A stretch of DNA of 64,000 bases from Amniculibacterium aquaticum. Lineage in GTDB: Bacteria; Bacteroidota; Bacteroidia; Flavobacteriales; Weeksellaceae. Position 1 is the stretch's first letter; each line of letters begins with the position of its first letter. The translations under genes and the position numbers were made by a program. The notes under the pieces are model-generated. The model saw only the letters and a list, made by a program, of their open reading frames with translations, was not told the origin of the DNA and did no database searches. The stretch covers positions 1-64,000 of the forward strand of contig NZ_REFA01000004.1 in NCBI RefSeq assembly GCF_003852705.1. Reading direction: 5' to 3'. This document shows, in pieces, positions 23,933 to 44,198 of this stretch.

Positions 23933-26191
23933 TTATTTTATACTAGCAGTTTTTACTTCCGTCGTTTTGATGTCTGTTCCTAATCTTTGTAGGTAAGCAA
24001 TCAATGCTACGATTTCTTTTTTCTCTAACTGACCTGGTCTATCTGCGTAAGCCGTTTTTAGGTCGGCTGCTTCAGAGAAAATATCCTTAACGATTTTCTT
24101 CGCTTGGTTATCTGCCCAAGTGTTAGCACTATCGATTTCTGCTTGAGTATACGGTACATCGAAAGTATTCTTCATCAAATTCAACTTATCCACCATTTTG
24201 GTACGATCCAAATCGGTTGCGATCAACCATGGGTAACGAGGCATGATAGAACCTGCGGATGTCGATCTTGGGTTGTACATGTGTTTGTAATGCCAAGAAC
24301 TTGGGTTTTTACCACCTTGTCTGTGCAAATCCGGTCCCGTTCTCTTAGATCCCCAAAGGAATGGTCTATCGTAAACAAACTCTCCGGCTTTAGAATATTG
24401 ACCATTTTTCCCGTTAAAACGAACTACTTCATCACGGAAAGGACGAATCATTTGCGTGTGACAAGAGTTACAACCTTCACGGATGTACAAGTCTCTACCT
24501 TCTAATTCTAGTGGTGAATATGGCTTAACAGCAGAGATTGTAGGTACATTTTCTTTTACGGTCAATGTAGGAATAATCTGTACCATACCACCAATTGCAA
24601 GCGCAATTAAAGATAAAACTGTAAGATACAAAGGCATTCTCTCTAACCATAAGTGTACGCCTTCTCCTTCTTTTCTTGCTTTTCCGATGTTTGCCAATGC
24701 AGGAGCTTCTGCCGGAACATCTTTTTGGAAAGATCCACTTCTAACTGTAGCTACCACATTGATACACATCAAAATAGCACCAGCAATATAAAGCAAACCA
24801 CCAACAAATCTCATTTTATAATACGGTAGAATAGCCGTTACGGTATCCAACCAGTTTTTCCATTCAAGTGTACCGTCCGGGTTGAATTGTTTCCACATCA
24901 AACCTTGAGTAAATCCTGCGATGTACAAAGGAACGGCATAGAAAATAATCCCTAGTGTACCCAACCAGAAATGCCAGTTGGCCAATTTCACAGACCAAAG
25001 TTTGGTTCTCCACATAATTGGCAATAAGTAATATACCATACCAAAAGTGATGAAACCGTTCCATCCTAAAGCACCCAAATGCACATGCCCAATCACCCAA
25101 TCGGTAAAGTGACCGATTTTATTTAAAGTTTTTGTTGCCAAGATAGGTCCCTCGAAAGTAGCCATACCATAACACGTAATAGCAACGACGAAGAATTTCA
25201 GAATCGGATTTTCTCTCACCTTATCCCAAGCACCTCTCAGGGTAAGTAATCCGTTCAACATACCTCCCCAAGACGGAGCGATCAACATGATAGAGAAACC
25301 GGTACCTGTTGCCTGAACCCAAGCTGGTAAAGAAGTATATTGAAGGTGGTGAGGACCAGCCCAGATATATACGAAAATCAAAGACCAGAAGTGGATAATA
25401 GATAGTTTATAAGAGAACACAGGTCTTTCGGCCGCTTTTGGCACGAAGTAATACATCAAACCTAGAATAGGTGTTGTCAATACGAATGCTACAGCATTAT
25501 GACCGTACCACCATTGTACCAAAGCATCTTTCACACCAGAATAAGCGGAATACGATTTCCATCCGGTGAAAGACAAAGGAACCTCTAAGTTATTGAAAAT
25601 ATGCAACATTGCAATTGCAATCCAAGTTCCGATGAAGAACCAAACGGCAACATACAAATGTCTTACTCTTCTAACTGCTACTGTAGCGAACATGTTGTAA
25701 CCAAAAACCAACCATACAAGCGTAATCATGATATCGATTGGCCATTCGTGTTCAGCATATTCTTTAGAAGTGTTGATTCCCATAAGGAAAGTAATCACTA
25801 CAGCAACGATCATTAATTGCCAACCCCAGAAATGAATCCAAGAAAGGGTATCGCTGTACATTCTCGTTTTAAGCACTCTTTGCATAGAGTAATAAGCTCC
25901 GGCAAAGAAACCATTACATACGAATGCGAAAATAACCGCAGAAGTATGCAACATTCTAATTCTACCAAAACCGAAATAACCGTGAGAGTTGATCAAGCCC
26001 TGAATCCCTCCAGAAGATAGGGTCTTGATGGTTGTATCATCGGTTCCTAAAAAGTATTCAGGAAGCTCGGGGTAGAATAACATCAAAGCAGCAGTAAGTC
26101 CAAGCAAAAACCCTACGATACCAAATACTACGGTAGCATAGAGAAACGCACGAACAATACTGTTGTCGTAACTAAACTTTTGTGTCTCCAT
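23933..26191 (-). CDS. ccoNO: cbb3-type cytochrome c oxidase, fused subunits I and II
   Basis: A 752-aa fusion. Residues about 1-480 are CcoN: twelve or more membrane helices with the haem and CuB histidines (SHGYFGFGRIRMLHTS, WWYGHNAVAFVLT, GPHHLQYTSLP, DWVIGHVHLGALGWNG). This is the oxygen-reducing haem-copper centre and proton channel. Residues about 520-752 are CcoO: a membrane helix, then a haem c domain with EGCNSCHTQMIRPF (Cys574 to His578). Fusion of N and O is typical of Bacteroidetes. The enzyme reduces oxygen with high affinity in the inner membrane. Confidence 0.96.
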   Translation of the reverse strand: METQKFSYDNSIVRAFLYATVVFGIVGFLLGLTAALMLFYPELPEYFLGTDDTTIKTLSSGGIQGLINSHGYFGFGRIRMLHTSAVIFAFVCNGFFAGAYYSMQRVLKTRMYSDTLSWIHFWGWQLMIVAVVITFLMGINTSKEYAEHEWPIDIMITLVWLVFGYNMFATVAVRRVRHLYVAVWFFIGTWIAIAMLHIFNNLEVPLSFTGWKSYSAYSGVKDALVQWWYGHNAVAFVLTTPILGLMYYFVPKAAERPVFSYKLSIIHFWSLIFVYIWAGPHHLQYTSLPAWVQATGTGFSIMLIAPSWGGMLNGLLTLRGAWDKVRENPILKFFVVAITCYGMATFEGPILATKTLNKIGHFTDWVIGHVHLGALGWNGFITFGMVYYLLPIMWRTKLWSVKLANWHFWLGTLGIIFYAVPLYIAGFTQGLMWKQFNPDGTLEWKNWLDTVTAILPYYKMRFVGGLLYIAGAILMCINVVATVRSGSFQKDVPAEAPALANIGKARKEGEGVHLWLERMPLYLTVLSLIALAIGGMVQIIPTLTVKENVPTISAVKPYSPLELEGRDLYIREGCNSCHTQMIRPFRDEVVRFNGKNGQYSKAGEFVYDRPFLWGSKRTGPDLHRQGGKNPSSWHYKHMYNPRSTSAGSIMPRYPWLIATDLDRTKMVDKLNLMKNTFDVPYTQAEIDSANTWADNQAKKIVKDIFSEAADLKTAYADRPGQLEKKEIVALIAYLQRLGTDIKTTEVKTASIK

Positions 26192-36585: not shown

Positions 36586-36593
36586 TAATTTTG
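36586..36593 (+). promoter_or_regulatory. candidate -7 element for the copper locus
   Basis: TAATTTTG fits TAnnTTTG and ends five bases before the start codon, which would give a leaderless or nearly leaderless mRNA. No clear -33 TTG is seen at 17-23 bp. Confidence 0.35.
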
Positions 36594-36598
36594 TTGGT

Positions 36599-36958
36599 AT
36601 GAAAACCTGGTGGACTACACTTTTAGCAATTCTTATATTCGCTTCGAGCTTTCAAAGCTCGTTGGTGTTGGTCGATTACCACATCAATCAGGATTTTTAC
36701 GAAAACCATTGCGAAAATAAAGATCGTCCCGAACTGAGCTGCCATGGTAAATGCCAACTGAACCAAGAGCAAGACCAATCTGGAATTTATTTGGTAGCAA
36801 AGTTTTGTTTCGAAATGAATGTTCTGCCCACTTCTGAAATCAAAATCACAGAAGATAACGGAATTGAGAACCCTTTGGTTAAGATTAATTTTAACCGATA
36901 TTCTTCTCGTTTATCCCACGGATATTTCCATAAAATACCGAGACCTCCTCAGATTTAA
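36599..36958 (+). CDS. small cysteine-rich membrane protein, copper locus
   Basis: A 119-aa protein with one N-terminal hydrophobic segment (WWTTLLAILIFASSFQSSLVLV) and a soluble part with HCENKDRPELSCHGKC, three cysteines and two histidines within 16 residues, then FCF. This YH-N-Q-x-Y...C-x-N-K-D-x-P-E-L-x-C-x-G-K-C pattern is known from short Bacteroidetes proteins next to TonB receptors and metal genes; their function is uncharacterised. A metal-binding (probably copper) role is inferred from the Cys/His cluster and from the two genes that follow in the same direction. Confidence 0.65.
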   Translation: MKTWWTTLLAILIFASSFQSSLVLVDYHINQDFYENHCENKDRPELSCHGKCQLNQEQDQSGIYLVAKFCFEMNVLPTSEIKITEDNGIENPLVKINFNRYSSRLSHGYFHKIPRPPQI

Positions 36959-37063
36959 TTGATTCAATCGTCAAGCTCAGATCATTTGTAGTCTTTACAA
37001 ATGCAGAAATCGAGCATCTTTTTTCGACTAAATTTTATTAAAAATCAATTAAACTCTAAAAAA

Positions 37064-37915
37064 ATGAAATCAATTATCAAAACGATATTGGCCACATTGG
37101 TAATGGCCCTATCCCTTATATCTTGTAGAAACAGCGAAGATCCAATTGTAGAATCCCCTAACGAACTGAGTGGACTGCAATTAATCAAAGAATTCTCGAA
37201 CGACAAACACATCATAGAACTTTATTCGGCCAGTGGAAAATTGAGCCAAGGGTATCACGAAATCAGTCTAAGAATAAAAAATAAAGCAACGGGACAATAC
37301 GAGAACAACGCTACAATAGATTGGACCCCAACCATGCACATGACCAGCATGAGCCACTCTTGTCCAAAATCTGCAGTATCAAAACCTCTAGGAAACAACT
37401 TGTATAAAGGATACATTGTGTTCACCATGGCTCAAAATGCTTCTGAATATTGGGATCTTAAAGTAAACTACACCATAGACGGTATAAGCCACACCGCGAC
37501 CACCGTATTGGATGTACCTGCGACAACAAAAAGAGTCGTAACCTCTTTCAAAGGCAGTGACAATACAAAATACATCTTAGCCTATATCGAACCTAAAAAC
37601 CCTAAAGTTGCAACAAACGACTTCGTTGTAGGGGTTTGGAAAATGGTGGACATGAATACTTTTGCTGTGGTGGATGGATATACTGTAAAAATTGATCCTC
37701 GAATGCCGAGCATGGGCAACCACACCTCTCCCAACAACATGCATGCAACACAAAAAAATGCGGGAGGCTTGTATTTTGGCAAACTGTCTCTTACCATGAG
37801 TGGATATTGGAAAATCAACCTGCAATTGGCCGATCAATCGGGCACCATACTAAAAGGTGAAGAAATAAACGACAGCACACCTGCCAGCAGTATTTATTTC
37901 GAACTAGAATTCTAG
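37064..37915 (+). CDS. Met/His-rich lipoprotein with two YtkA-like domains
   Basis: A 283-aa lipoprotein (lipobox LISC). The start is set at the ATG before KSIIKTILATL. Two beta-sandwich-like repeats follow: the first (about residues 50-140) contains TPTMHMTSMSHSCPKS, the second (about 175-265) contains DPRMPSMGNHTSPNNMHA. Each places Met, Met and His at similar spacing inside a YtkA/FixH-like domain, a pattern of extracytoplasmic copper-binding sites. It sits between a Cys-rich protein and a copper-type TonB receptor; a role as a surface copper-binding partner is inferred. Confidence 0.7.
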   Translation: MKSIIKTILATLVMALSLISCRNSEDPIVESPNELSGLQLIKEFSNDKHIIELYSASGKLSQGYHEISLRIKNKATGQYENNATIDWTPTMHMTSMSHSCPKSAVSKPLGNNLYKGYIVFTMAQNASEYWDLKVNYTIDGISHTATTVLDVPATTKRVVTSFKGSDNTKYILAYIEPKNPKVATNDFVVGVWKMVDMNTFAVVDGYTVKIDPRMPSMGNHTSPNNMHATQKNAGGLYFGKLSLTMSGYWKINLQLADQSGTILKGEEINDSTPASSIYFELEF

Positions 37916-37936
37916 TTTAAATTTCACTTACCAATT

Positions 37937-37970
37937 ACAGCAAGATTTTAACAAAACTCTTGCTGTGATT
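37937..37970 (+). terminator. hairpin between lipoprotein and TonB receptor genes
   Basis: Perfect nine-pair stem (ACAGCAAGA 37937-37945 with TCTTGCTGT 37958-37966) followed by GATTTT. It could be a terminator with readthrough or a stabilising 3' end. Confidence 0.7.
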
Positions 37971-38035
37971 TTGCATCTCAAAATTTCAGTTTTTAAAAAT
38001 TAATCATCCAAAATTGGTTGAAACCCTTTTGTATT

Positions 38036-40027
38036 ATGAAAAAGAATTTCATCATCATATTGTGCTTGGCATTCTCTTGTATTATGCAAGCACAAGAAGA
38101 TCAAGACAGCTTAAAAACTCGAGGCATCCAAGAAGTCATTGTTATCAAAACACAAAACATTTCCATCAAAGAAAACAAACCTCTGGGTTCTATTGATGAT
38201 TATTTGCAAAAATCGGCTCAGGTGGATATGATCCGTAGAGGCGCCTACGCTTGGGAACCTACTGTAAACAACATGAGCACAGAGAGAACCCTTGTAACCA
38301 TAGATGGCATGAGAATTTTTGGTGCATGCACCGACAAAATGGATCCCATAACCTCGTATGTAGAAGTTTCTAATCTGGCTTCAGCAAAAATTACAAGCGG
38401 ACAACAAGGTTCTTGCCACGGCGCAACCATCGGTGGAGCAATCGACTTGCAAAGAAGCAAAACTGCATTTGGTTCTGAAAATTTAAAAATAAATTTAAAC
38501 TCCGGCTTCGAGTCGGTAAATTCACAAAAAATTTTAGGAGCAGGATTTGTATTTAAAAACTCTAAACTCTACAACGATGCCAGTTTTATGTTTAGAGAAG
38601 CTGGAAATTACCACACCGGAAAATCAACAGAAATTTTATATTCACAATTCAAGAAAATTAACTTTTCCGAAACTTTGGGGTATAAAATCAACGACAAGCA
38701 CCTCGTAGAAAGCTCCCTGATCTACGACAAAGCCAGCAATATCGGATATCCGGCACTTCCTATGGATGTTTCCTTGGCCGAAGCCATCATTACTTCACTT
38801 AAACACCGTTACGAAAACCCCGAAGGAAAAATTAAAAGTTGGGAAACCAAGTTTTATTACAACAACATCACACACAGGATGGACGACAGCAAAAGACCAA
38901 TTGTGCCCATCCGTATGGACATGCCGGGATGGAGCAGCACTTACGGTTACTACAGCAAGGCACAATTCGACATCAACAAACATCAATTTTTAGTGAATCT
39001 TTCAGGATACACCAACAATTCTTTGGCAGAAATGACCATGTATCCCAACAATTCTACAGAAAAATTAATGTTTATGCTTACTTGGCCCGGTGTAAAAACT
39101 TTGAATCAAGGATTATTTATTGAAGACCATTACACCTTGAACGAAAATAATAGTTTAAAAGCATCCTTTGGTATAAATTACCACCATAACAAGATCGAAA
39201 AAGAAATGGGGCTGCAAAGTTTGCAAATTTTCTATCCCGAATTAAAAGTCGACAAAAGTAGAATTTTGAAAAATTTTGCCTTCAACTACATCGTTAAAAC
39301 AGGTGATTTTGAGGCAGGGATAGGCACAGGATACGGGGAAAGATCTGCATCCGTTTCGGAAGGTTATGGTTTTTACCTTTTCAATTCTTCGGAAAAATAC
39401 GACTACATCGGAAACCCAAATCTTAAAAATGAAAATGCTTGGGAAGGCAATTCCTACATTAGCTGGAAAAAGAATAAAAATATTACTTTAAAACTGAACG
39501 CTTCGATCTTTTACATTCAAAACTTTATGGTCGGAGAAGTTATTCCTGGATTTGCCCCAATGACCATCGGTGCTTTGGGCGTAAAAAAAATGACGGCTTT
39601 GGATCATGCAAATATTATCAATCTGGGGTTGAATACAGAAATAAAAATCACACCACAACTGCAATGGAAAACTCAGATTTCCTACAATTATGGCAAGGAT
39701 CATCGTGGCGAACTGCTTCCTTACATCAGTCCAATCCGCTACCGAAGCAGCTTGGCTTTCGATAAAAATGCGCTTCATACTGAAATTTCGTTGATCGGTA
39801 ACACCTCAAAAAAGCACTACAATACCAATTATGGAGAAAGTTCGACTCCGGATTTCGCAATATTGAATGCTACTATTGGTTATTCGATTAATTTCGGAAG
39901 AAATAAAATTATGGTAAAAACGGGAGTCGAAAATATTTTTGACACTTATTACACCACTTTTTCAGATTGGAATAAAATCCCAAGACCCGGCAGAAACTTT
40001 TTCATCAACATCAATTACGCTTTATAG
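38036..40027 (+). CDS. TonB-dependent receptor, OprC-like copper type
   Basis: A 663-aa outer-membrane TonB-dependent receptor. Signal peptide 1-20 (ending MQAQ), plug domain about 30-140 and 22-stranded barrel region to the C-terminal aromatic-rich end. It carries CTDKM (Cys98 to Met102) in the plug and HRM (His280, Met282) in the barrel. These match the CxxxM and HxM ligands reported for the copper importer OprC of Pseudomonas. The plug also has QQGSCHGATIGGAID. Substrate prediction: copper ions. It has no carboxypeptidase-like N-terminal domain and is not next to a SusD gene. The start is the ATG before KKNFIIIL. Confidence 0.85.
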   Translation: MKKNFIIILCLAFSCIMQAQEDQDSLKTRGIQEVIVIKTQNISIKENKPLGSIDDYLQKSAQVDMIRRGAYAWEPTVNNMSTERTLVTIDGMRIFGACTDKMDPITSYVEVSNLASAKITSGQQGSCHGATIGGAIDLQRSKTAFGSENLKINLNSGFESVNSQKILGAGFVFKNSKLYNDASFMFREAGNYHTGKSTEILYSQFKKINFSETLGYKINDKHLVESSLIYDKASNIGYPALPMDVSLAEAIITSLKHRYENPEGKIKSWETKFYYNNITHRMDDSKRPIVPIRMDMPGWSSTYGYYSKAQFDINKHQFLVNLSGYTNNSLAEMTMYPNNSTEKLMFMLTWPGVKTLNQGLFIEDHYTLNENNSLKASFGINYHHNKIEKEMGLQSLQIFYPELKVDKSRILKNFAFNYIVKTGDFEAGIGTGYGERSASVSEGYGFYLFNSSEKYDYIGNPNLKNENAWEGNSYISWKKNKNITLKLNASIFYIQNFMVGEVIPGFAPMTIGALGVKKMTALDHANIINLGLNTEIKITPQLQWKTQISYNYGKDHRGELLPYISPIRYRSSLAFDKNALHTEISLIGNTSKKHYNTNYGESSTPDFAILNATIGYSINFGRNKIMVKTGVENIFDTYYTTFSDWNKIPRPGRNFFININYAL

Positions 40028-40142: not shown

Positions 40143-40586
40143 ATGAAACGAGAAGATATCCTCAAAGAAATTATAAAAGAACAGCACCGAGTTATCCAAA
40201 GCTTAAAAGACAGTGTCGACGGCTACAAAACTGCCTCGGACATGGACGAAGACAGCACATCGGATCCGGATGATTATACACGACAAGCGGAAGCCAAAGA
40301 CATGCAATTGCGTTTTGAAAAAATGCTACAAAAAGAAAAAAATGATTTAGAATTCGTATTGAACGAAATGGAAAAGTCGTACACAGAAATTGAATTTGGC
40401 GCCATTGTTGAAACCGACAAAAACTACTTTTTCTTAGCCGTTCCACTTCCGAAACTTACCTTTGGAGGCAAAGAATTGTTTTGCATTTCTAAAGATGCAC
40501 CCATATTTTCTAAACTAAAAGGTCAAAAAATTGGAGCATCTATTGAAGTAGGAAACACCACACATACAATCGTTAACATACTATAA
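40143..40586 (+). CDS. GreA/GreB-like protein, small
   Basis: A 147-aa cytoplasmic protein. The N-terminal half is a predicted coiled coil (LKEIIKEQHRVIQSLKDSVDG, then RFEKMLQKEKNDLEFVL) with an acidic DMDEDSTSDPDDY insertion. The C-terminal half resembles the FKBP-like domain of transcription elongation factors (FGAIVETDKNYFFLAVPL, then APIFSKLKGQKIGASIEV). It is shorter than the family and may bind RNA polymerase as a Gre-like factor. The assignment is by overall pattern only. A lipoprotein gene follows after seven bases. Confidence 0.55.
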   Translation: MKREDILKEIIKEQHRVIQSLKDSVDGYKTASDMDEDSTSDPDDYTRQAEAKDMQLRFEKMLQKEKNDLEFVLNEMEKSYTEIEFGAIVETDKNYFFLAVPLPKLTFGGKELFCISKDAPIFSKLKGQKIGASIEVGNTTHTIVNIL

Positions 40587-41054: not shown

Positions 41055-41438
41055 ATGGATCTCAATCAAATTTTAATTTTACTCATCTTAGGACTCATCA
41101 GTGGGATACTGAGTGGCTTACTCGGTATTGGTGGTGCCGTATTCATCATCCCCGCACTCGCCATATTTATGGGATTTTCACAGCAAACCGCACAAGGAAC
41201 CACTTTGATGATGATGGTCTTACCGGTGGGTTTTATGGCAGCACTACAGTACTATAAAGCTGGACACGGCGATATAAAAACAGCAGGCATTTTGGCCTTA
41301 GCTTTTTTTATTGGTGGATACTTTGGTGGCAAATGGGCCAACCAAATCCCTCAAGATATTTTGAAAAAAATATTTGCCGTATTGCTCATCGTCATCGCCA
41401 TAAAAATGCTCTTTTTCGACAAAGCCATTAAAATGTAA
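41055..41438 (+). CDS. TauE/SafE family half-size permease
   Basis: A 127-aa protein with four membrane helices, about half the size of a full TauE/SafE permease; GILSGLLGIGGAVFIIPALA is the family repeat motif. Such half-size forms are probably dimeric. It is the first gene of a run of co-directional sulfur-related genes and is 23 bp upstream of the CstB-like enzyme, so it likely exports or imports a sulfur oxyanion such as sulfite or thiosulfate. The substrate is inferred from context. Confidence 0.8.
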   Translation: MDLNQILILLILGLISGILSGLLGIGGAVFIIPALAIFMGFSQQTAQGTTLMMMVLPVGFMAALQYYKAGHGDIKTAGILALAFFIGGYFGGKWANQIPQDILKKIFAVLLIVIAIKMLFFDKAIKM

Positions 41439-41461
41439 TTAAAAATTAAAAAATTTAAGAA

Positions 41462-42865
41462 ATGAAAATAGAACAAATATATACAGGATGTCTCGCACAA
41501 GGTGCTTATTATGTTGTTTCTAACAACCAAGCGTTCATCATCGATCCGTTAAGAGAAACCCAACCCTACATTGATAGATTGGAAAAAGATGGCGCACAAT
41601 TAAAATACATTTTTGAGACACATTTCCACGCTGATTTTGTGTCCGGACACTTGGATCTGAGCAAAAAAACCGGCGCACAAATCGTTTACGGACCCACTGC
41701 CAATCCCAGCTTTGAAACCACTATTGCCGAAGATGGGCAGATCTTTAAAATTGGAAACATCCAAGTAAAAGTCCTGCACACACCTGGACACACCATGGAA
41801 AGCATCAGCTTACTTTTGATAGATGAAAACGGTAAAGAAACCGCATTGTTTTCTGGTGACACTCTGTTTTTAGGCGATGTCGGAAGACCCGATCTTGCGC
41901 AAAAAGCAGCGAACATGACCCAAGAAGAACTTGCAGGTATCCTTTACGAAAGTTTACAAAATAAAATTTTACCTCTTGCCGACGACATCGTTGTGTACCC
42001 GGCACATGGAGCAGGATCTGCGTGTGGGAAAAACATGCAAAAAGAAACTGTGGACAGTTTGGGAAACCAAAAACGAACCAACTACGCGCTGAACCAGCCC
42101 AATAAAGAAGCATTTGTAAAAGAAGTATTGAATGGACTAACAGCTCCACCACAATATTTCGGAATGAATGTAGCCATGAATAAAAGTGGATATGAAAGTT
42201 TTGAAAATGTGATGGCAAAAGGAAACCATGCCTTGTCGGTAGATGAATTTGAAGCCATCGCTGAAGAACATTCCGCCCTGATCTTAGACACCAGAAACGC
42301 AGCCGATTTCCACAAAGAATTTGTACCAAAATCCATTAATATCGGTTTGAAAGGAGATTTTGCACCTTGGGTAGGCGCAATGATTGTCGATGTACAACAA
42401 CCCCTCCTTTTAGTTTGCGATCAAAATAGTGAAGAAGAAACCATTACACGATTGGCAAGAGTTGGGTTTGACCATGTATTAGGCTATCTGAACGGAGGAA
42501 TAGAAAGCTGGAAAAAAGCCGGAAAAGAAGTGGATCGCATCAACAGAATTAGTCCACAAGAAATGGAACAACAAATCCAAGATAAAGATAAAATTGTGGA
42601 TGTACGAAAAGAAACCGAATACACCGCAGAACATCTTGTAGCAGCAGAAAACCTACCTCTTTCCAACATCAATCAATGGTTCAATACATTTAACAACGAC
42701 CAACATTTTTACCTGCATTGTGCCGGTGGATACAGAAGTATGATTGCCGCCAGCATTCTAAATGCACGAGGAATCCGAAATTTCACAGAAATAGAAGGAG
42801 GATACAACAAAATAAAAGAAACCAACCTTCCTAAAACCAATTTCGTTTGTCCATCAACCAAATAA
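41462..42865 (+). CDS. persulfide dioxygenase-sulfurtransferase, CstB-like
   Basis: A 467-aa three-domain enzyme. The N-terminal metallo-beta-lactamase fold has THFHADF (His54, His56, Asp58), a VLHTPGHTMESIS loop and FSGDTLFLGDVGRPDL, the iron-binding pattern of ETHE1/CstB persulfide dioxygenases. The middle rhodanese-like domain (about 265-355) has CDQNSEEE where an active-site loop would be and is probably inactive. The C-terminal rhodanese has an intact HCAGGYRS loop (Cys420). By analogy with CstB it oxidises low-molecular-weight persulfides to sulfite or thiosulfate, detoxifying sulfide. Confidence 0.9.
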   Translation: MKIEQIYTGCLAQGAYYVVSNNQAFIIDPLRETQPYIDRLEKDGAQLKYIFETHFHADFVSGHLDLSKKTGAQIVYGPTANPSFETTIAEDGQIFKIGNIQVKVLHTPGHTMESISLLLIDENGKETALFSGDTLFLGDVGRPDLAQKAANMTQEELAGILYESLQNKILPLADDIVVYPAHGAGSACGKNMQKETVDSLGNQKRTNYALNQPNKEAFVKEVLNGLTAPPQYFGMNVAMNKSGYESFENVMAKGNHALSVDEFEAIAEEHSALILDTRNAADFHKEFVPKSINIGLKGDFAPWVGAMIVDVQQPLLLVCDQNSEEETITRLARVGFDHVLGYLNGGIESWKKAGKEVDRINRISPQEMEQQIQDKDKIVDVRKETEYTAEHLVAAENLPLSNINQWFNTFNNDQHFYLHCAGGYRSMIAASILNARGIRNFTEIEGGYNKIKETNLPKTNFVCPSTK

Positions 42866-43181: not shown

Positions 43182-43775
43182 ATGGAAGAATTGAATAAAG
43201 AATTTTGGGATGCGAGATGGAAAAACCAACAAACGGGTTGGGATATTGGTCATGCTTCTCCGGCCATCGTAAAATATTTCGAACAAGTTCTTGATAAAGA
43301 CATTAAAATTCTCATCCCGGGATGCGGCAATGCTCACGAAGCCTTTGCTCTTTCAGAAATGGGTTTTCAAAACATTACGCTTCTCGACATTGCACCAACT
43401 GCTGTTGAGCATTTGAAAGAAAAGTTCCAAAACCACCCCAACATCAATACGGTTTGCGATGATTTTTTCTTGCACGAAAACCGATACGACCTCATGGTGG
43501 AACAAACATTTTTTTGTGCCATTTCTCCAGATTTAAGAGAGCAATACATCCGTAAAGCTTCAGAAATTTTAGAACCAGAAGGGAAAATAATCGGTTTGCT
43601 GTTCAATACCGAATTTGAAAAAGCCGGACCTCCATTTGGCGGAGACAAGACCGAATACAAAATACTTTTTGACAAATATTTTGAAATCAAAACCATGGAA
43701 GACTGCTACAATAGTATTGAACCTAGAAAAGGAAGCGAGGTCTTCATCAACCTAAAAAACAAAAAAACGGTATGA
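43182..43775 (+). CDS. TPMT-family methyltransferase, thiol/halide type
   Basis: A 197-aa class I SAM-dependent methyltransferase. The SAM motif is IPGCGNAHEAFAL (residues 45-57), then LLDIAPTAVEH and MVEQTFFCAISPDLR. These features, together with GPPFGGDKTEY, match the TPMT superfamily branch that includes plant halide/thiol methyltransferases, which methylate HS- and iodide. Given the persulfide gene cluster, methylation of sulfide or another thiol or selenide is a plausible role; this is inference. The start is the ATG before EELNKEFW rather than the TTG six bases earlier. It overlaps the next gene by four bases. Confidence 0.8.
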   Translation: MEELNKEFWDARWKNQQTGWDIGHASPAIVKYFEQVLDKDIKILIPGCGNAHEAFALSEMGFQNITLLDIAPTAVEHLKEKFQNHPNINTVCDDFFLHENRYDLMVEQTFFCAISPDLREQYIRKASEILEPEGKIIGLLFNTEFEKAGPPFGGDKTEYKILFDKYFEIKTMEDCYNSIEPRKGSEVFINLKNKKTV

Positions 43776-44011
43776 CTGCATTTATAAAAAAAAATAAATT
43801 GGGACTGGCGGGTATCCTTGTTGGCGGCATCTTAGGCTATGCCTATTATCACTTTATCGGATGCAGCTCTGGGACTTGTGCCATTACTTCCAAGCCTATA
43901 AACTCTTCGGTGTACGGAATGTTGATGGGTTACCTTACTTTTAGTATTTTTGAACCGAAAAAAAAATCAGCAGACATCAATACGAGCAATGACAATCATC
44001 AACAAAATTAA
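43772..44011 (+). CDS. small membrane protein, DUF6132-like, GCSSGTC motif
   Basis: A 79-aa protein with two membrane helices (LGLAGILVGGILGYAYYHFI and SSVYGMLMGYLTFSIF). Between them is GCSSGTCAITSKPINS: Cys31 and Cys36 in GCSSGTC. The pattern matches the short family named DUF6132. The ATG overlaps the methyltransferase stop by four bases (ATGA). The cysteine pair may carry sulfane sulfur or bind metal; no function is established. Confidence 0.75.
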   Translation: MTAFIKKNKLGLAGILVGGILGYAYYHFIGCSSGTCAITSKPINSSVYGMLMGYLTFSIFEPKKKSADINTSNDNHQQN

Positions 44012-44198
44012 AAACATACTCATTATAAAAGGTTGGAATTTCAGAAGAATCCTCTACCTCATCGGAGGATTTTGGATGGTTGCATTGTCTGTAAAAGACC
44101 AAACATGGTGGATGTCTATTTTTGGGCTGTATTTTATAGCCATGTCCATCTTCAAATTCGGCTGTGCATCCGGAAATTGTGAAATTCCAAAGAAATAA
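43989..44198 (+). CDS. small membrane protein, DUF2892/YgaP-like, GCASGNC motif
   Basis: A 69-aa protein with two membrane helices (ILYLIGGFWMVALSV and MSIFGLYFIAMSIFKF) ending in GCASGNCEIPKK, with Cys59 and Cys64 at the same spacing as the preceding protein's motif. The start is the ATG before TIINKIKN; it overlaps the previous gene by 23 bases. It resembles the YgaP/DUF2892 transmembrane unit, which in other bacteria accompanies a rhodanese domain. A sulfur-related role is inferred from context. Confidence 0.7.
   Translation: MTIINKIKNILIIKGWNFRRILYLIGGFWMVALSVKDQTWWMSIFGLYFIAMSIFKFGCASGNCEIPKK

Follow-up and report, generated by a model that had tools for sequence, protein, structure and literature searches.

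The window analysed here is a stretch of 64,000 nt from contig NZ_REFA01000004.1 of Amniculibacterium aquaticum (Bacteroidota, Weeksellaceae). It contains a predicted copper-acquisition locus of three genes, all on the plus strand (36599–36958, 37064–37915 and 38036–40027), the last of which encodes a TonB-dependent receptor of the OprC type. The start of gene 2, a lipoprotein gene, was corrected from 37001 to the ATG at 37064, which leaves a gap of 105 nt behind gene 1, and that of the receptor gene from the TTG at 38018 to the ATG at 38036; with the latter start, the residue numbers of an initial annotation of this DNA (C98, M102, H280 and M282) are reproduced. That annotation had proposed a role in copper acquisition, which sequence and gene context support as a prediction, and had counted gene 1, as a membrane protein, among the structural components of a three-gene uptake system. 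The latter proposal is not supported: gene 1 has few conserved residues, it consistently comes first in copper operons, and RNA arms pair at its stop codon, all of which suggests a regulatory upstream open reading frame (ORF), hereafter the leader. The features of the locus are as follows.

36586–36593, plus strand: Bacteroidota-type −7 promoter box TAATTTTG (TAnnTTTG), identified from sequence, 5 nt upstream of the leader ORF
36599–36958, plus strand: leader, an upstream ORF of 119 residues with N-terminal hydrophobic segment, Cys motif, variable linker and the C-terminus ...PRPPQI; predicted copper-sensing arrest peptide
36710–36754, plus strand: C38-x9-C48-H-G-K-C52, predicted copper-binding motif of the leader (invariance in 19 divergent members)
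36944–36949, plus strand: Pro116-Pro117 codons, predicted arrest site, 6 nt ahead of the stop codon (127-member comparison)
36951–36964, plus strand: RNA arm A, AGATTTAATTGATT, spanning the leader stop codon; pairs with 37043–37057
36975–37024, plus strand: hairpin (−12.6 kcal/mol) followed by a U-run, resembling an intrinsic terminator
37043–37057, plus strand: RNA arm B, AATCAATTAAACTCT, ending 7 nt before the gene 2 start codon; would sequester the start region when paired with arm A
37064–37915, plus strand: lipoprotein of 283 residues with two probable immunoglobulin-like (Ig-like) domains, the C-terminal one YtkA (PF13115) (Pfam, 36 orthologues, model)
38036–40027, plus strand: OprC-type TonB-dependent receptor of 663 residues (phmmer, NCBIfam, orthologue alignment, fold search with an AlphaFold2 model)
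38327–38341, plus strand: CTDKM, predicted copper ligands Cys98 and Met102, equivalent to OprC Cys143 and Met147 (alignment, orthologues)
38873–38881, plus strand: HRM, predicted copper ligands His280 and Met282, equivalent to OprC His323 and Met325 (alignment, orthologues)

The leader has a single N-terminal hydrophobic segment, cysteines at C38, C48 and C52, and a C-terminus reading ...FHKIPRPPQI. No Pfam or NCBIfam family was found for it, and searches of the leaders returned stray single matches at most. Among 148 genomes from the same family, 124 have relatives of it. Three sets of leaders were compared (83, 44 and 75 members, some loci being common to several sets), the first of which was gathered by the Cys motif, the C-terminus playing no part. 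All 83 members of this first set carry C-x9-C-x-G-K-C, and in all 83 a Pro-Pro lies no more than 7 residues from the end, most often as [F/P/L][H/R/K]PP; nine further members with altered Cys motifs likewise end in PP. A profile built from 19 members detects the family in 150 of the 395 Bacteroidota genomes sampled (70 of 171 genera). Forty loci of this phylum sample were fetched, 20 of them matched by the profile mostly in the N-terminal part only, and all carry a PP-ending member.

Over 127 leaders, the PP lies 1–8 residues from the end in every case, as compared to a PP in the last ten residues of 2 out of 441 other ORFs from the same loci, and each of its two positions shows all four Pro codons. 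The PP follows the last Cys at a distance of 60 to 73 residues (mean 65.7, standard deviation 2.5). In 19 divergent members, with 17–39% identity to the first one, the sole invariant residues are C38, C48, G50, K51, C52, P116 and P117, and the linker of 60–70 residues that separates the Cys motif from the PP shows hardly any sequence conservation but a conserved length. Conserved ends at a conserved distance around an unconserved middle are the pattern expected of an arrest peptide with a sensing site. A spacing of about 65 residues would place the Cys site outside the ribosome tunnel, at or past the translocon, which fits a periplasmic sensor. One leader upstream of a receptor (locus L202) has a long extra tail after FHPP, likely the result of a frameshift in one Flavobacterium genome.

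As for the promoter, TAnnTTTG is found within 60 nt upstream of the leader in 82 of 137 relatives (about 0.1 occurrences are expected per 120 nt), and in 43 of those 82 it starts at −15 to −11 from the leader start codon. The presence of this box directly upstream in many members suggests that the transcript probably begins with the leader, nearly without a 5′ untranslated region.

From the last codons of the leader to gene 2, the RNA is more stably folded than shuffled sequence (z −2.84), and the pairing of arm A with arm B has p = 0.01 by shuffling. The same relation between stop region and next start was found over 183 loci, where the mean pairing energy is −10.3 kcal/mol versus −6.7 kcal/mol with partners swapped between loci; within each of four groups, own partners pair better than swapped ones, and none of 2000 permutations reaches the own pairing. 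Among 145 non-redundant loci, this excess is limited to at most 15 nt from the stop codon and the 30 nt before the next start; compared with shuffled own partners, it amounts to −1.55 and −1.98 kcal/mol at the stop codon (standard errors 0.22 and 0.27) and is small elsewhere. In 85 ordinary gene pairs taken from these loci there is no stop-codon peak, just the hairpins commonly seen further downstream. With its usual footprint, a ribosome stalled at Pro116-Pro117 would reach about position 36960 and would thus cover most of arm A.

The initial annotation had noticed CTDKM and HRM in the receptor, both of which are present at the residues given above, and had left it undecided whether the match to OprC reflected homology or convergence. 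The top Protein Data Bank (PDB) match of the receptor by phmmer is OprC (6fok, E 3.8e-11), and the alignment places C98, M102, H280 and M282 on residues 143, 147, 323 and 325, respectively, i.e., on the copper ligands of OprC, Cys143, Met147, His323 and Met325 (PMC8610252). The four residues are conserved together: they are invariant in 17 family relatives, with identity down to 40%, and in 38 orthologues from named genomes. The latter were fetched by a scan with ACTDKMD among its two seeds; the 17 relatives were drawn by whole-protein similarity, with no ligand-motif seed, and therefore constitute the unbiased test of ligand conservation. An AlphaFold2 model built from the 38 orthologues has a predicted local distance difference test score (pLDDT) of 81, falling below 50 at residues 102–107. 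With Foldseek its 28 best PDB matches are all OprC (template modelling score 0.8), a second structural aligner gives Z 35.5 and a root-mean-square deviation of 2.7 over 592 aligned residues, and with both aligners OprC ranks above all other solved structures. Since OprC leads all solved structures in both the sequence and the fold comparison, and the four ligands are invariant in the 38 orthologues, the relation is, as judged from sequence and model, homology, which extends over plug and barrel. Convergence of the CxxxM-HxM motif is ruled out by the phmmer alignment, the invariant ligands and the fold match. Overall identity to OprC is 17–19%; the best NCBIfam match is TIGR01778 (E 2.2e-30), whose equivalog cut-off is missed (106 versus 472 bits), so that by sequence the receptor is an OprC homologue and not an equivalog-grade member of TIGR01778.

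Gene 2 matches PF13115 (YtkA-like; E 1.2e-10, 42.3 bits versus a cut-off of 25.9). The description of its product as a lipoprotein with two Met/His clusters holds: these clusters, MHMTSMSH (M91 M93 M96 H98) and RMPSMGNH (M214 M217 H220), one per domain, are conserved in 36 orthologues, in which M91, M93, H98, M214, M217 and H220 are invariant or nearly so, as are P215, N219 and S222–N225 around the second cluster. The model (pLDDT 92) is mostly beta; in a fold search it gave weak tandem Ig-like matches, and because of their weakness the two Ig-like domains are proposed as probable. The lipoprotein would bind periplasmic or surface copper.

Leaders of this family consistently precede copper genes. 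Wherever a named OprC-type locus had enough upstream DNA (75 loci), a leader is present, ending 0.9–1.8 kb before the receptor. The first gene of at least 150 residues behind the leader in 85 loci encodes a TonB receptor (32), MbnP (23), YtkA (12) or SCO1/SenC (10); SCO1 and MbnP types are also among the first-gene families of the wider leader set. Of 65 receptor-sized ORFs examined among the three genes that follow a leader, 52 have Cys, Met, His and Met at the aligned ligand positions, and many of these share only 22–27% identity with the receptor studied here. With OprC ligands in most of the TonB receptors behind it, the leader may serve as a marker for copper-uptake genes.

Further arrangements were seen in this wider set. 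Behind the same leaders, a second receptor class (L251, L254, L259, L272, L275 and L283) is without the four ligands and carries RP[MV]G[VI]FNHN[AS]L or a close variant; it is perhaps another importer of copper or of a copper chelate. Some gene rows (L074, L076, L077, L088, L089, L091, L092, L094, L112 and L117) have two leaders a few genes apart, the first ending in FHPP and the next in FRPP or FKPP. L274 and L289 contain a pair of leader ORFs separated by about 3.5 kb: the first precedes an OprC-type receptor operon, and the second directly follows the receptor and precedes another gene of lipoprotein size.

Taken together, we consider it likely that the locus is a copper-import operon consisting of a promoter, a copper-sensing leader that senses during its own translation, a copper-binding lipoprotein and an OprC-type TonB receptor. 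Layout, conservation and RNA pairing are read from the sequence, whereas we infer arrest, copper binding and the sign of regulation. The leader, whose N-terminal hydrophobic segment is visible by eye, would be exported by Sec during synthesis. At low copper, the ribosome would stall at the C-terminal Pro-Pro and cover arm A, so that the gene 2 start would be free and lipoprotein and receptor would be made. Copper binding to the Cys motif outside the membrane would release the arrest by pulling or folding; the leader would then be completed, arms A and B would pair, and translation of the operon would stop. That copper would turn the operon off is suggested by its import function and by the precedent of CruR of Bordetella pertussis, a DUF2946 leader that contains CXXC and RAPP and acts via Rho to control a copper-linked TonB receptor (PMC9426467). 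The opposite sign is also possible, as in CutF of Rhodobacter, a protein with CxxxC and a Pro-rich end that opens a stem over the next start (PMC9973294).

Several observations weigh against this reading. The leader context is [F/P/L][H/R/K]PP and not the RAPP or RGPP shown to arrest; plain PP stalls can be relieved by elongation factor P (EF-P), which the genome encodes; and CutF's own Pro-rich end, alone in a LepB fusion, gave no stall (PMC9973294). As to the RNA, 69 of 145 leader loci individually beat 95% of shuffles (controls, 16 of 85), and the signal is weaker in Flavobacteriaceae (−8.0 versus −6.4). Ordinary gene pairs too slightly favour own over swapped partners (−8.6 versus −7.4), so that swaps alone are not a clean control, and for this reason the shuffled own partners and the position scan were added. 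Finally, no signal came from a column-by-column covariation test, run without gaps and with slid partners, probably because the register of the stem shifts; a MAFFT alignment of nine intergenic regions was not usable for pair counts.

Alternatively, the same leader and the same copper signal could act at transcription, as for CruR, with the arrest preventing Rho-dependent or intrinsic termination ahead of gene 2 and the A/B pairing being secondary. The hairpin and U-run at the locus would suit such a mechanism, and 22 of 102 leader intergenic regions have one at −8 kcal/mol or better, versus about one in shuffles; the genome also encodes Rho, through which CruR works (PMC9426467). However, about four-fifths of the regions are without a strong hairpin and U-run, and termination does not need a complementarity located exactly at the start region of the next gene. 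We regard this explanation as possible but not favoured; the two mechanisms can coexist, and the terminator-like hairpin may add transcriptional attenuation to the translational switch or replace it.

A second alternative, close to the view of the initial annotation, is that the product of gene 1 is functional in itself, as an anchored small Cys copper chaperone or as a partner of the receptor, with the Pro-Pro forming part of a fold or binding surface. Its conserved Cys motif and constant neighbourhood with copper genes would be expected of such a protein, but the residues between Cys motif and PP keep their length and hardly their sequence, and the end of the gene carries the RNA pairing with the next start. 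Furthermore, CutF, which has the same layout, is rapidly degraded after export (PMC9973294), and CruR is thought to be so likewise (PMC9426467). We consider a working protein unlikely. That the receptor imports something besides copper ions (a copper chelate, silver or another metal), its ligands being inherited but repurposed, is quite improbable: the low identity to OprC, the TIGR01778 score below cut-off and the import of chelated copper by CrtA (PMC12914433) leave room for it, but the four ligands are invariant across the 38 orthologues and kept in receptors only 22–27% identical behind the same leaders, and the neighbours are of copper type.

Turning again to the copper-sensing leader with its stop-to-start stem, we are inclined to think that Bacteroidota have copper-sensing arrest peptides of their own (C-x9-CxxxC ... 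[HRK]PP-end), spread across the phylum and with no profile relation to CruR/DUF2946, that gate the translation of copper-import and cuproprotein-assembly genes via a long-range stop-to-start RNA stem repeatedly rebuilt in evolution. Copper sensing and the control of copper import are hardly known in Bacteroidota so far; if the proposal is true, one simple device with a clear prediction for each residue and base would operate in more than a third of the sampled genomes of the phylum, and its loci would be a naturally repeated experiment on the joint evolution of an RNA switch and an arrest peptide.

The surroundings of the locus were also inspected. The cbb3 oxidase gene that the initial annotation had placed about 10 kb away is present (a CcoNO-type fusion at 23933–26191, minus strand, about 10.4 kb from the locus). 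Position cannot decide whether the two are functionally tied, but a tie becomes somewhat more plausible with the same leader family heading SCO1/SenC genes (10 of 85 loci). The spacer between gene 2 and the receptor gene (37916–38035) contains a hairpin, ACAGCAAGA...TCTTGCTGT, and 3′ of the receptor gene there is a gene of 147 residues without Pfam match (40143–40586), with a 147-residue ORF at the same place in many relatives. Next to the operon, 41055–42865 and 43772–44198 encode a TauE-like half-transporter, a metallo-beta-lactamase/rhodanese fusion and small Cys membrane proteins, which we read as a sulfur-handling group.

Among known systems, CutF is similar to the leader in its CxxxC, C-terminal Pro-Pro and a stem-loop shielding the next start, and its signal sequence may have a counterpart in the N-terminal hydrophobic segment of the leader (PMC9973294). 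The operational definition of CutF-like proteins (fewer than 150 residues, PP in the last 15 residues and a same-strand gene within 1000 nt; PMC9973294) describes the leader, with its 119 residues, PP at 116–117 and 105 nt to gene 2. RNA structure shielding the next start, also a CutF property, is found here statistically over the 145 loci and with p = 0.01 at the locus. According to the text of that study, many Bacteroidota figure among the 5,334 CutF-like proteins listed by computation, with TonB proteins as frequent neighbours (PMC9973294). The kind of leader is therefore already known, while the present family is not individually described in that text. A further difference is that CutF switches on a copper oxidase when copper is present (PMC9973294), whereas the genes behind our leader import copper.

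CruR, whose arrest was shown in vitro in 2025 (PMC12992588), is an exported protein; like the leader, it is small, contains Cys, carries a C-terminal di-proline motif and heads a TonB copper-receptor operon, and the spacing between its motifs matters (PMC9426467), as length is conserved in the leader family. The leader differs in having C-x9-CxxxC in place of CXXC, [HRK]PP in place of RAPP, and RNA arms at the next start in place of a mapped Rho terminator. It has no Pfam match at E 10, DUF2946 included, and PF11162 occurs in 5 of 198 Bacteroidota genomes and is absent from this one; membership in DUF2946 is ruled out by the missing profile match and this absence. The RAPP/RGPP arrest peptides are small secretory proteins that, like the leader, have a C-terminal di-proline and lie upstream of TonB and copper genes, but the surveys that described them searched mainly RAPP-like motifs (PMC12992588, PMC10987492) and the present family uses [HRK]PP. 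In the 2025 survey copper-linked RAPP/RGPP leaders are lacking in Bacteroidota (PMC12992588), which is consistent with the use of another motif in this phylum. In the literature, supplements being outside the search, no individually described copper-linked leader in Bacteroidota was found beyond the CutF-like list; nor, in the portions of it available to us, were the motif of the family, its tie to OprC-type import in Bacteroidota or the recurring stop-to-start pairing.

The receptor by itself is not new, since an OprC-like flavobacterial TonB receptor with CxxxM-HxM, G2EC70 of Bizionia argentinensis, was published in 2024 (PMC11213822). In the available text of that report we found no leader ORF, YtkA protein or RNA element described, all of which are present here; Bizionia echini carries a related locus (L216). 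Compared to OprC/NosA of Pseudomonas (TIGR01778), the receptor has the same TonB receptor fold and the CxxxM-HxM ligands at aligned positions, with about 18% identity and a score under the family cut-off, and upstream of it lie a leader of another family and a YtkA lipoprotein gene. P. aeruginosa oprC itself has a cruR homologue upstream (PMC9426467). If true, our proposal would extend control of the CutF/CruR type to another phylum, with a different arrest motif.

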